Shown: positions 4,563 to 34,581 of the stretch, one piece after another
How the letters are laid out: each line of letters opens with the position of its first letter
Position numbering within the stretch: the first letter of the stretch is position 1
Source: Fimbriimonadaceae bacterium
Lineage (GTDB): Bacteria; Armatimonadota; UBA10988
DNA length: 64,000 bases
Direction of reading: 5' to 3'
NCBI GenBank assembly: GCA_020850355.1
Contig: JADZEX010000030.1
Location: 62,001 to 126,000 of the forward strand
The notes under the pieces: model-generated
What the model saw: the letters and a program-made list of their open reading frames with translations, nothing else
The model's database searches: none
Told to the model about the DNA's origin: nothing
Position numbers and translations under genes: made by a program

Positions 4563-5232
4563 GCTCGCCGTCGGAGTCAGCCGATGGGCTGAAGGATCCT
4601 GTGAGATCACCGTCGGCGACACCCAGGTGCTGTGCCTCGCCAGCATCGAGGAGAGCGTCCCACCGTTCCGCCGCGAGACCGGCCTGGGATGGGTCCCCGC
4701 CGAGTACGACATGCTCCCCCGCGCCACCAGCGAACGGCGCCAGCGCACCGGCCGCAGCGGCAAACCCGATGCGCGGGCGCTGGAGATCAGTCGCCTGGTC
4801 GGCCGTTCGCTGCGCAGCGTGGTGGACTTCGCCGCACTCGGCTCGCGCACCATCACGGTCGACTGCGACGTCCTGCAAGCCGACGGCGGCACGCGCACCG
4901 CCAGCATCACCGGCGCCTACGTCGCCCTGGTCGAGGCCCTCAAGACCCTCCAGGCGCGCCGGCTGTTCGCCAAGCTGCCCGTCCGCGACAGCGTCGCCGC
5001 GGTCAGCGTCGGCGTGCTCGGCAACGACGAACTGCTGGACCTCTGTTACGCCGAAGACCACCGCGCCGCCGTCGACATGAATGTTGTGATGACCGGCCGC
5101 CTGCGCCTCGTCGAGATCCAAGGCACCGCCGAGGAACGCCCCTTCAGCCGCGAGCAACTCAACCGCCTGCTGGACCTCGCCGAACAAGGCATCCGCGAAC
5201 TGACCGCCCTCCAGCAAACCGCGCTTGCCTAA
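4516..5232 (+). CDS. rph: Ribonuclease PH
   Basis: This 238-residue phosphorolytic 3'-5' exoribonuclease trims tRNA 3' ends, using phosphate and releasing nucleoside diphosphates. The family signatures are in order: [10 protein letters not shown] near the N-terminus, [44 protein letters not shown], and the catalytic [18 protein letters not shown]. Length is normal. The ATG at 4516 follows AAGGAG at 4500-4505, inside the 3' end of the TolB-like gene, so translation is likely coupled. Its TAA stop is the first base triplet of a tandemly duplicated terminator repeat. Confidence 0.96.
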
Positions 5233-27060: not shown

Positions 27061-28091
27061 GCACACTGCCGGCGGTTGACCGCCGCGAGGCGCTGCGCCG
27101 GATCGGCCTCACCGCTGGCGTCGCCGCGGGCTTCACCGCGGCCGGCTTTGCGCTGCACGACCGCCGCAGCGGGGGCGCCTACTTCCGCGACCTGGCCAAC
27201 GCCGAGGTCGTCACCCTCGGCGACTACCGCGTGCCGCTCAAGGAAGGCACCCCGCCGTTGGCCATCGCCCACGGCGACGACCCGGCGCGGCTGGTCGAGG
27301 CGGCGGTCGCGGCGCTCGGGGGGATGGCCCACTTCGTCAAGCCGGGCGACGTTGTGATCCTGAAGCCGAACGTCGCCTTCGACCGCGCGCCAGCGCTCGG
27401 CGCGACGACCTCCCCGGCGGTGCTTGGGGCGGTCGCCAAGATGGTCCGCTCGTGCGGCGCGCGGCGCATCCTGGTGATCGACAATCCGATCAACCAGCCG
27501 GAAGGCTGCTTCCACAAGTCGGGCATCGCCGCCGCCGCCGCCGCCGCGGGCTGCGAAGTGGTGATGCCTACCCCGGCCCGCTTCGCGACACTCGCCGTAG
27601 GGCGGTTCCGCGGCGCCGACGGCCAGCTCAGCGGCCAGCGGGGCGACGCGCTCGATACCTGGCCGCTGTTCTACGATCCATTCAAGACCGCCACCAAGGT
27701 GATCGGCATCGCGCCCTGCAAAGACCACAACCTCTGCGGCGCGTCGCTCACGATGAAGAACTGGTACGGCCTGCTGGGTGGCCGGCGGAACCAGTTCCAC
27801 CAGCAGATCCACGGTATCATCAGCGACTTCCCGTTGTTGATGCGCCCGACCCTGGTGGTGCTCGATGCCACCAGCATTCTGATGAAGAACGGCCCGACCG
27901 GCGGCAGCACCGCCGATGTCAAACCGGGCCGCACGGTGGTCGTCGGGACCGATATGGTGGCCGTCGACAGCTACGGCTACACGCTCTTCGAGCGCCGCAC
28001 GCCAGCGCCGGAGTACCTCGCGCGAGCGACTCAGCGGGGGCTTGGCAACGCCGACTGGCAGAGCTTGCAACCGACCGAGTTGACCGTCTAG
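27057..28091 (+). CDS. DUF362 protein, Tat-exported
   Basis: This 344-residue protein has a twin-arginine-type leader (RREALRRIGLTAGVAAG). The DUF362 core follows with GDVVILKPNVAFD, ATTSPAVLGAVAKMVRSCGA, and KDHNLCGASLTMKNWYGLLGG. DUF362 domains occur with ferredoxin domains in Fe-S proteins, and this one lacks CxxC motifs itself, relying on the polyferredoxin next door. It is translationally coupled to the gene before it, and the polyferredoxin starts 21 bases after its TAG. Confidence 0.9.
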   Translation: MSTLPAVDRREALRRIGLTAGVAAGFTAAGFALHDRRSGGAYFRDLANAEVVTLGDYRVPLKEGTPPLAIAHGDDPARLVEAAVAALGGMAHFVKPGDVVILKPNVAFDRAPALGATTSPAVLGAVAKMVRSCGARRILVIDNPINQPEGCFHKSGIAAAAAAAGCEVVMPTPARFATLAVGRFRGADGQLSGQRGDALDTWPLFYDPFKTATKVIGIAPCKDHNLCGASLTMKNWYGLLGGRRNQFHQQIHGIISDFPLLMRPTLVVLDATSILMKNGPTGGSTADVKPGRTVVVGTDMVAVDSYGYTLFERRTPAPEYLARATQRGLGNADWQSLQPTELTV

Positions 28092-30900: not shown

Positions 30901-32115
30901 TCAATGCCGGCGCTTGCGCTTCTGCTGGCTGCTGGCCGCGGTCTTGCCCACCGCCGGCGCGGCGGTCTTCGGCTCGCTGGCCACCTCGGTCCCAGGGCTG
31001 CTGGGCGCGGCGGTGGTCGCCGGCTTCGGGCCGGCCGCTGGCGTGGTCGGCCGCGGGCGCGCCGCCGGGACCGCCCGTTGGGGCGCCATCTGGCCGCTGG
31101 CGACCTGCTTCCGTAGGAAGCGCTGGTAACCCAGCGAGAACAGCGGCGCGGCGGTGAAGATGGAGCTGTAGCCGCCGGAGATCACCCCGACGAGCAGCGA
31201 AAAGGCGAAGTTGCGGATGTTCACCCCGCCAAACAGGAACAGCGTGGCGAGCGGCAGCAGGGTACAGACCACGGTCACCACCGACCGGCCCATGACCTGC
31301 CAGAGGCTGGTCTCGAGCTGCGTCTCGACCACGCTGAAGGTCTTGCGCTGCGTCGGGTCCAGCTTGCCGAGGTTCTCGCGAATGCGGTCGAAGATGATCA
31401 CCGTGTCGTTGATGGAGTAGCCCACCACGGTCAGCACGGCGGCCACGAAGTTGGTGTTGACCTCGACGCGGAACCAGGCGTAGACCGCGACCATCACCAG
31501 CACGTCGTGGATCATCGCGATGATCGCCGACAGGCCGAAGAGGTGGCCGGCGCCGATGCCCTTGATGTTGTAGCGCGCCCAGATGTAGATGGTCACGCCG
31601 AGGCAGCCCCAGAACAGCGCCCAGAGCGCCATCCGGCGGAGGTGCTCGCCGACCACCGGGCCGACCAGCTCGCTGCCGACCAGCTCGACGTCCTTGAACT
31701 TGCCCTGCAGGGCGGTTAGCAGGGCCTGTTGCTCGGCCTGCTTATCGGCCTGCGCGGTCTGCTGCCGGTTGCGGTCGGAGCCGGTGGCGGTGGTGATCGA
31801 CACCCCGCCGTCGGTGAAGACCTGCACCAGCGGGTCGACGACGCTCTGACCGTTGCCCCACTTGGCCCCGGCGACTGCCTCGCGGATGATCTTGCTGTTG
31901 GCCGCCGAGTCGGTGCCGCCGGGCAGTTGCGCGAACTTGAACGTGTAGGCGGCGCCGCCGGTGAAGTCGATGCCGTAGTTCAGCGCCGAGCCGGTGCGGG
32001 ACTTGTTGATCCCCATCGCCACGAAGCCCGACAGGATCACCAGCAGCGAGACCCCGAACCAGAGGTTCCGCCGGGTCACGATTGCGAAGGGGTGGTTTGC
32101 GGTTGCCGCGTTCAT
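30901..32115 (-). CDS. secF: Protein translocase subunit SecF
   Basis: This 404-residue inner-membrane protein has the SecF pattern: first TM near residue 18, GIDFTGGAAYTFKF, then five TMs with GYSINDTVIIFDRIREN and GRSVVTVVCTLLPLATLFLFGG. It works with SecD to drive late steps of protein export with the proton or sodium gradient. The C-terminal 75 residues form a Pro/Ala/Lys-rich tail ending in QKRKRRH, longer than usual and probably cytoplasmic. It starts 30 bases after the SecD stop. Confidence 0.94.
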   Translation of the reverse strand: MNAATANHPFAIVTRRNLWFGVSLLVILSGFVAMGINKSRTGSALNYGIDFTGGAAYTFKFAQLPGGTDSAANSKIIREAVAGAKWGNGQSVVDPLVQVFTDGGVSITTATGSDRNRQQTAQADKQAEQQALLTALQGKFKDVELVGSELVGPVVGEHLRRMALWALFWGCLGVTIYIWARYNIKGIGAGHLFGLSAIIAMIHDVLVMVAVYAWFRVEVNTNFVAAVLTVVGYSINDTVIIFDRIRENLGKLDPTQRKTFSVVETQLETSLWQVMGRSVVTVVCTLLPLATLFLFGGVNIRNFAFSLLVGVISGGYSSIFTAAPLFSLGYQRFLRKQVASGQMAPQRAVPAARPRPTTPAAGPKPATTAAPSSPGTEVASEPKTAAPAVGKTAASSQQKRKRRH

Positions 32116-32145: not shown

Positions 32146-33318
32146 TCAACCCCGGTACCAACGGCGGTTCTGGCCGATCTTGGTGGCGGCCACCAGGTTC
32201 TGCCAGGTCCGCGTGACGTAGAGCGCGCTGACCATCGAGACCCAGGTGCCGATGAACAGCGTCACGCCGAACCCCTTGATGGGACCGGTTCCCAGCGCCA
32301 TCAACACGGCGGCCGAGATGATGGTGGTGATGTTGCCATCGAAGATGGCGTCGAACGATAGCTCGTACGAGTTGCGGATGCACTGCGCAATCGGCCGGGC
32401 GCGGCTCTCGCGGAGTTCTTCCTTGAGCCGCTCGAAGCTGATCACGTTGCCGTCGACCGCCATGCCGACGCTGAGGATGAAGCCCAGGATGCCCGGCAGG
32501 GTCAGCGTGAACTCCAGCACCGTCATGATCGCCAGGACGATCATGCCGTACTCGATCAGCGCGAGGGTCGCCAGGAAGCCCGGCATGCGGTACAGCGCGA
32601 CCATCGTCAAGAGGATCAGGATCAGCCCGGCGACCGCCGCGCGGCGGCTCTGGTTGACCGAGTCGGCACCCAGCGTGGCGCTCACGGTGCGCTGCTCGAC
32701 GACGTCCACCGGCACCGGCAGGGCGCCGGCTTCCAGCAGAATCTTCAGCTCCTTAGCCTCGCGCGGCGTGGCGAACCCGCCGGTCAGCAGGACCTTGCCG
32801 CCGTAGTGCCGTTCCTTGAGGCTCCGCACGTCGATGCAGCGGCGGTCCAGGAACATCGCGATCAGCTTGTTCTGGTTCTCGCTGGCAAAGGCGTCGAAGC
32901 GCGCCGAGCCTTCGCGGTTCAGCTCCAGGCTGATCGCCGGCTTGTTCTCCTGGTCGAAGGTCACGATCACGCTGTTGCTGCCGAGATGGCTGCCGACCAG
33001 GACGTTCTTGTCACCGTTGAACTCGGGCGCCTCGTAATAGACGATCTGGTGCGGCACCAGCTTGTCGGGGGCGGACTTGTCCTTGAAGGTGATCACGTTC
33101 CGGCCGCCCGGCCCGGGGTTGGTGTCGTACTCGTACTTCTCGGGCACCTTGCGGAACTCCATCCGCGCCGTGGTCCCGAGAATGCGGACCGCCTCTTCGG
33201 GGTCCTTGACACCGGGCAGCTCGACCACCACGCGGTCGTTGCCCTGGCTGCGGACGTCGGTTTCACTGACGCCCAGGCGGTTGATGCGCTCGCTGACGAT
33301 CCGGGCGACGTCGTCCAT
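32146..33318 (-). CDS. secD: SecD, C-terminal part (after in-frame amber codon)
   Basis: This 390-residue open frame carries the rest of SecD: P1 head segment SERINRLGVSETDVRSQGND, RVVVELPGVKDPEEAVRILG, the P1 base and the five C-terminal TMs with GILGFILSVGMAVDGNVISF and FDAIFDGNITTIISA. The first half is in the same frame upstream, separated only by a TAG at 33391-33393 and 24 sense codons. The ATG at 33318 follows AAGAAGG at a spacing of only two bases, so independent initiation would be weak. Confidence is high for identity and low for this start. Confidence 0.85.
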   Translation of the reverse strand: MDDVARIVSERINRLGVSETDVRSQGNDRVVVELPGVKDPEEAVRILGTTARMEFRKVPEKYEYDTNPGPGGRNVITFKDKSAPDKLVPHQIVYYEAPEFNGDKNVLVGSHLGSNSVIVTFDQENKPAISLELNREGSARFDAFASENQNKLIAMFLDRRCIDVRSLKERHYGGKVLLTGGFATPREAKELKILLEAGALPVPVDVVEQRTVSATLGADSVNQSRRAAVAGLILILLTMVALYRMPGFLATLALIEYGMIVLAIMTVLEFTLTLPGILGFILSVGMAVDGNVISFERLKEELRESRARPIAQCIRNSYELSFDAIFDGNITTIISAAVLMALGTGPIKGFGVTLFIGTWVSMVSALYVTRTWQNLVAATKIGQNRRWYRG

Positions 33319-33390
33319 CGCCTTCTTGTCGTCGATCTTCAGGTCCTGCGGGTCGCCGATCTGCTTGGCGCCCTTGAAGACCCGCTGCAG

Positions 33391-34581
33391 CTAGCCGAGG
33401 ATCATCCGCGCGTGCTCGGCCATCTGCTGCTGCGCCTGGGCCTCGCTCATCTCGACCCGCGTGCGGAAGACCACCGTCTGCGACGAGACCACTTCGGCCA
33501 TCACCTGGCCGTCGCGCTCGGCGTACTTCTGCTTGATCTGCACGACGATTTCGTTGATTCGCGACTCGACCTGCTCCATCAGCGCTTCGTCGGCCCAGGC
33601 CACGGCGTCCTCGGAGGTCACTTCTTCCTCGGTCAGCGTGGTCGGCTCGGCGTCTTTGGCGGTCTCGCCGCCCGCGGCCGGGGCGGCGTCCTTGGCCTCG
33701 CTCGACTTGCTGTCCGCGTCCTCGACTGGCTCGGCGCCCTTGACCGGCGCAGTGCCCTCGGCCGGCGGCGCCTGGGCGATCCGGATCGGTTCCCCACCGT
33801 CGGGCTGCTTGCCTTCAGTGCCGGCCTTGGCGTCCTTGGCTTCTTCCTTGGCGGGCTCGGCCTTGGCGTCCTTGGCCTCTTCCTTGGCGGGCTCGGCCTT
33901 GGCGTCCTTGGCCTCTTCCTTGGCGGGCTCAGCCTTGGCGTCCTTGGCTGCTTCCTCGGCGGGCTCTGCCGGCGCAGTGCCTGCAGCGGCTGCCAGGGCG
34001 GCGCGCAGCTCGGCCGGCGTCTGGGCCAGCTTGAACTCGTACTGCACGTTCTGCGTGCGGGCCTGCAGCACCAGGTGGACACCGCCCTGGATGTCCAGAC
34101 CCAGCTTCATGTGCAGCCGCGGTCGGAAGATCCCGAGCGGGCCGAGCTTGGCCAGCGGCTGGTCGGGGAAGCCCGAGAGGTCTTCGCGCGGCTCGCCGAC
34201 CTGCTTGCCGTACTTGGTCCCGAGCTCCTTGTCCAACAGCTTCAGAATCTGCTTCTTGAACTCCGCGGCTTCGGCAGCGTCTTTGGCGGGCACCTTCACC
34301 TTGAGGTCGTTGGCGGCGGGGAAGCTGACATCACAGTCGGCCGGCAGGTTCCAGGACGCGAACTTCGAGCTGAGGGCGGCCCGCAACTCGTCTTTGGCGC
34401 GATCACTGGTCCCGAACGACTGCTCGTAGCGGAAGGTGAAGTAGACGTCGGAGAAGGTCTTCTCGTCGATCAGGCGGATCGGCTTGAAGCAGATCAGCGC
34501 GCAGATCACGAAGACCAGGGCATAAACCGCCAGCCGGATCTTGTCGCGGCGCAGATCGGCGGTGGCGACGCTCGAAGCCAT
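33391..34581 (-). CDS. secD: SecD, N-terminal part (ends at amber codon)
   Basis: This 396-residue frame starts at the ATG at 34581 with GGAG upstream. It has the first TM (IRLAVYALVFVICALICF), a P1-type region and the SecD signature MKLGLDIQGGVHLVL near residue 160. A low-complexity Ala/Lys/Glu insert with four 12-residue repeats (205-252) is followed by a helical stretch (EALMEQVESRINEIVVQIKQ). It ends with ARMILG and TAG at 33391-33393. The frame continues without shift into the C-terminal half. Either SecD is translated through the TAG, it is truly made as two chains, or one base is wrong. Confidence 0.88.
   Translation of the reverse strand: MASSVATADLRRDKIRLAVYALVFVICALICFKPIRLIDEKTFSDVYFTFRYEQSFGTSDRAKDELRAALSSKFASWNLPADCDVSFPAANDLKVKVPAKDAAEAAEFKKQILKLLDKELGTKYGKQVGEPREDLSGFPDQPLAKLGPLGIFRPRLHMKLGLDIQGGVHLVLQARTQNVQYEFKLAQTPAELRAALAAAAGTAPAEPAEEAAKDAKAEPAKEEAKDAKAEPAKEEAKDAKAEPAKEEAKDAKAGTEGKQPDGGEPIRIAQAPPAEGTAPVKGAEPVEDADSKSSEAKDAAPAAGGETAKDAEPTTLTEEEVTSEDAVAWADEALMEQVESRINEIVVQIKQKYAERDGQVMAEVVSSQTVVFRTRVEMSEAQAQQQMAEHARMILG
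33826..33969 (-). repeat. Four 36-bp repeats in secD
   Basis: Four tandem units encode AEPAKEEAKDAK (the first is AEPAEEAAKDAK), residues 205-252 of the SecD N-terminal part. The units are nearly identical at DNA level, indicating recent slippage or selected charge. The insert is not typical of SecD. Confidence 0.9.

Follow-up and report, generated by a model that had tools for sequence, protein, structure and literature searches.

A lone in-frame amber codon in secD of a draft Fimbriimonadaceae genome, probably a consensus error or strain-level variant

The secD gene (minus strand, 32146..34581) was found to be one reading frame broken by a single in-frame TAG, at codon 397 of 811 (33391..33393, minus strand; CTA on the plus strand). 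This stop is probably a consensus error or a strain-level variant (probability about 0.6). The organism would possess an ordinary single-chain secD beside an intact secF, and the assembled consensus would differ by one nonsense base, either through a base error or through a minority-strain variant that became fixed in the consensus of this draft, metagenome-type genome, while the organism's own secD carries a sense codon. The window, i.e., the whole stretch of 64,000 nucleotides that was analysed, represents bases 62001-126000 of contig 31. The genome is a draft of 6.67 Mb in 117 contigs, estimated to be 95.3% complete and 2.1% contaminated, and at least one conserved locus is absent from the assembly.

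Translation of the minus strand from 34581 to 32146 gave MASSVATADLRR...HARMILG*LQRVFKGAK...RRWYRG*, with no frameshift and one internal stop; the initial annotation had therefore been correct in placing both halves of SecD in the same frame with the TAG as their sole break. When read across the TAG, the 811-residue product scored 344 bits against the TIGR01129 secD model (cut-off 244.4; model positions 1-395 of 397), while the piece beginning at ATG 33318 scored 336.8 bits alone. Codon log-odds averaged 0.50 over the 60 codons before the stop and 0.58 over the 50 codons after it. The description of coding-quality SecD on both sides was upheld by these scores and by alignment to relatives, in which both halves matched single-chain SecD; a chance open reading frame was rejected on this ground. 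The 414 codons past the TAG contained no further stop and no frameshift. A search of the whole genome with PF02355 returned only the secD and secF proteins, making this the sole secD in the assembly, and secF was intact and directly downstream (30901..32115, minus strand; TIGR00966, 253.5 bits, cut-off 160).

The part before the TAG (33394..34581, minus strand), delimited by translation, hydropathy and identity to the relative G002, comprised TM1 (residues 12-40), the LGLDIQGG strand (near residues 175-183) and a linker rich in A, E, K and P; searched by itself, it matched no family. The part after the TAG (32146..33390, minus strand) contained the P1 domain and TM2-TM6, according to PF21760, PF22599, PF02355 and identity to G002. 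This order of TM1, LGLDIQGG, P1 (PF21760 and PF22599) and TM2-6 (PF02355), the position of secF directly downstream and the score above the curated cut-off are all shared with TIGR01129 SecD, the type belonging to separate secD-secF operons. However, TIGR01129 SecD is one uninterrupted chain, which the assembled sequence is not. The present gene differs also in its long linker with a 36-bp tandem repeat (33822..33970, minus strand; 4.1 copies, 94% matches), encoding a 12-residue unit rich in A, K, E and P that contains KAEPAKEEAKDA. Long linkers are common to the family relatives, where A/P/K-rich stretches of other sequence occupied the same site. Residue 397 fell within this variable linker, beyond the LGLDIQGG strand and 25 residues short of residue 422, where PF21760, the first of the conserved P1 domains, begins. 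Hence, the TAG does interrupt SecD as first described, but outside the conserved P1 core and not in the middle of P1.

The first possible start codon past the TAG was an ATG (33316..33318, minus strand), 24 codons downstream and exactly at the beginning of PF21760. This coincidence and the linker position of the stop would suit a SecD of two chains, the first ending at the TAG and the second reinitiated at ATG 33318, but such an arrangement is extremely improbable. The sequence upstream of the ATG offered only a weak and too closely spaced purine run (AAGAAGG-CG-ATG). The SecD P1 domain works outside the cytoplasmic membrane; since hydropathy identified no hydrophobic segment before residue 645 (full-length numbering) in the protein initiated at ATG 33318, its P1 domain would lack an export signal and would stay in the cytoplasm. 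Moreover, the 24 codons from the TAG to the ATG would go untranslated in such an arrangement, whereas coding statistics persisted there (0.69 over the first 20 codons), as would not be expected of an untranslated gap. No relative was split at this site.

Four relatives from the same family or order (G001-G004) showed 42-50% identity overall. The codon aligned to the TAG was GAG, GCG, GAG and GCC in these genomes respectively, and the frame was uninterrupted in each; the alignment of secD from related genomes that had been proposed at the outset thus returned a sense codon in four cases out of four. With sense codons at the aligned site, the stop is, on this alignment, neither conserved nor positioned at a constrained residue. 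In G002, a single frame of 859 codons was 37% identical to the part before the TAG and 54% identical to the part after it. In an alignment-based scan, Armatimonadetes metagenome-assembled genomes came out as the nearest named relatives, and two of these derived from groundwater; a scan of named genomes with the single protein produced no match. The relatives searched included no other genome from this species or genus.

Stop codon usage was evaluated across 936 kb (~14% of the genome): the whole of contig 31, the greater part of contigs 15, 22, 86 and 96, and a portion of contig 38. A codon log-odds score was built from long frames, and stops that closed coding frames 60 codons or longer were listed. 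There were 642 such stops: 403 TGA, 189 TAG (~29%) and 50 TAA. In a smaller first sample, the mean coding score past the stop was similar for TAG (-0.25) and TGA (-0.32). Where coding extended to both sides of a stop elsewhere in the 936 kb, this reflected adjacent genes that share a frame, the next start codon lying 0-11 codons past the stop. Four TAG-separated frames, at window positions 28089 and 42507 and contig positions 4901 and 35953, were considered individually and dismissed as ordinary neighbouring genes with starts 0 to 8 codons past the stop. The secD TAG was the only stop inside continuous coding in this sample, its first start lying 24 codons away; the break is a singular event, with the pattern of a rare, random one. 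Given that TAG terminates so many coding frames with no coding beyond, it is a normal terminator in this genome, and RF1 activity would be expected in the organism.

Release factor RF1 is the factor that reads TAG, and a search of the genome for RF1 (prfA) produced no match over the cut-off, while RF1 exceeded the cut-off in 55 of the 61 genomes searched. The best match was RF2 (G000:C86:191185-192219), whose frame contained RISPFDG with its SPF motif and which was the sole full-length class I factor found; the second was a short GGQ protein, which we take to be of ArfB type. These results would agree with a genome-wide reassignment of TAG following RF1 loss, but the probability of this is close to negligible when 189 of 642 coding frames end in TAG with coding beyond only at secD, when no tRNA-CUA was found, and when the neighbours of prfA were missing too, as expected for an unassembled locus. 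The initial annotation had judged global reassignment unlikely, and the frequency of TAG terminators sustains that judgement despite the missing RF1. In the same search across genomes, a prfA match (G053:C121:10871-11935) and an RF2-level match to the prfA model (G031:C12:42927-43946) each contained one TAG.

The neighbourhood of prfA was examined through L31, DUF1385 and prmC. In G003, prfA directly adjoins both rpmE (L31) and a DUF1385 gene; in G001, its neighbour is the DUF1385 gene. A search of the present genome for L31 gave no match, and the prfA-linked DUF1385 gene was not found in it, the only DUF1385 match being a weak paralogue beside argS. This locus (L109 1171-2466, G000:C64) encodes a DUF1385-like membrane protein with apparent N-terminal CBS repeats, and is apparently a paralogue of the prfA-linked gene. 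Because L31 and DUF1385 were absent together with prfA, the simplest reading is that the rpmE-DUF1385-prfA locus as a whole is missing from the assembly as one unassembled piece. Similarly, tRNA-Ile(GAT) and tRNA-Ala(TGC), which often sit in rRNA operons, were not found among the 44 tRNAs of the genome, a sign of assembly gaps that would be expected if rRNA operons had remained unassembled. The failure to find RF1 in this assembly resembles the condition of RF1-less TAG-recoding bacteria and pyrrolysine users; here, in contrast, TAG is a common working stop, neither a suppressor tRNA nor PylS was found, and the in-frame TAG is single.

Functional readthrough, in which a near-cognate or suppressor tRNA would decode the TAG at some rate and so yield full-length SecD, might be suggested by the strong coding past the stop, by secD being the sole copy and by the absence of RF1 from the assembly. 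Yet it is improbable. The search for an amber suppressor tRNA or pylS that the initial annotation had recommended was carried out and found neither: no anticodon CUA was read among the 44 tRNA genes, and PylS (TIGR02367) had no match in the genome. The known leaky context for readthrough is of the UAG-CARYYA type, which the secD stop (GGC-UAG-CUG-CAG) did not match, and TAG followed by C was the commonest TAG context in the genome (71 of 160) and so nothing special. The RNA fold downstream of the TAG was not unusual (z = -0.54). Programmed readthrough is characterized by a stop conserved in relatives and by a stimulatory context, and the secD TAG displayed neither.

Alternatively, the TAG could be a real and recent nonsense allele, full-length SecD having been lost by one substitution in a population that manages on SecYEG-SecA together with SecF or a shortened SecD. 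This is somewhat unlikely, although TAG is one substitution away from several sense codons. SecDF is an accessory factor, and secDF can be deleted without loss of viability in several bacteria, Bacillus cereus among them (PMC4118872). In the part after the TAG, two SecD motifs that are near-invariant in the relatives read differently here, with IDVR for ISAP and VDGN for VDAN, and these changes could hint at weaker constraint on SecD, the first suggesting some laxity. They count against a consensus error, and the evidence would look the same under a true nonsense mutation of recent origin as under an error. Constraint was measured by taking positions where all other relatives agree and counting changes in this genome: 28 of 162 positions had changed in SecD after the TAG (17%), compared with 18 of 108 in SecF (17%) and 25 of 165 in RF2 (15%). 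By this measure, the genome lies on a somewhat long branch, and SecD after the TAG appears not to be decaying faster than SecF or RF2; relaxed selection on this part was unsupported relative to these proteins. A single substitution past the TAG creates a stop in around 2.6% of cases, which gives even odds of a second stop after ~27 random substitutions. As no second stop has arisen in 414 codons, the TAG would have to be very recent if biologically real. With SecF intact and changing at the same relative pace, and with no second defect in secD, a real nonsense allele must be very young.

A consensus error or strain-level variant is favoured because relatives carry sense codons, secD has no second defect and no extra decay, the gene is the sole copy, the stop is unique in 936 kb and the draft is incomplete. 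It is documented that base miscalls introduce artefactual internal stops into low-coverage assemblies (PMC11017572), and the spurious pseudogenes of draft bacterial assemblies described there are of the same kind: a conserved gene is interrupted by a single stop but otherwise intact, such cases are rare per megabase, and the draft is incomplete. From the position and uniqueness of the stop, the sense codons of relatives, the ordinary use of TAG and the absence of a suppressor, all of which were observed, we infer that the base itself is wrong. A search of the literature on SecD with premature stops returned nothing relevant by title or abstract. Among the options that the initial annotation had listed, a wrong base or a fresh nonsense mutation are those now favoured, while readthrough, suppression and a two-chain SecD are disfavoured by the sense codons of relatives, the uniqueness of the stop, the lack of a suppressor and the lack of a P1 export signal. 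Even taken jointly, functional readthrough, a SecD of two chains and a recoded TAG are unlikely. It is very improbable that the TAG is real and read through at a useful rate in a lineage whose RF1 activity is weak or lost, such that truncated and full-length SecD would be made from one gene.

The combination of a broken gene and a missing RF1 in one draft genome mimics recoding, and calls for caution; in this instance, stop usage over 936 kb and the genes missing near prfA indicate that the code is ordinary and the assembly incomplete. Were the TAG real, either a free-living bacterium would have lost its full-length SecD or the amber codon would be functionally decoded.
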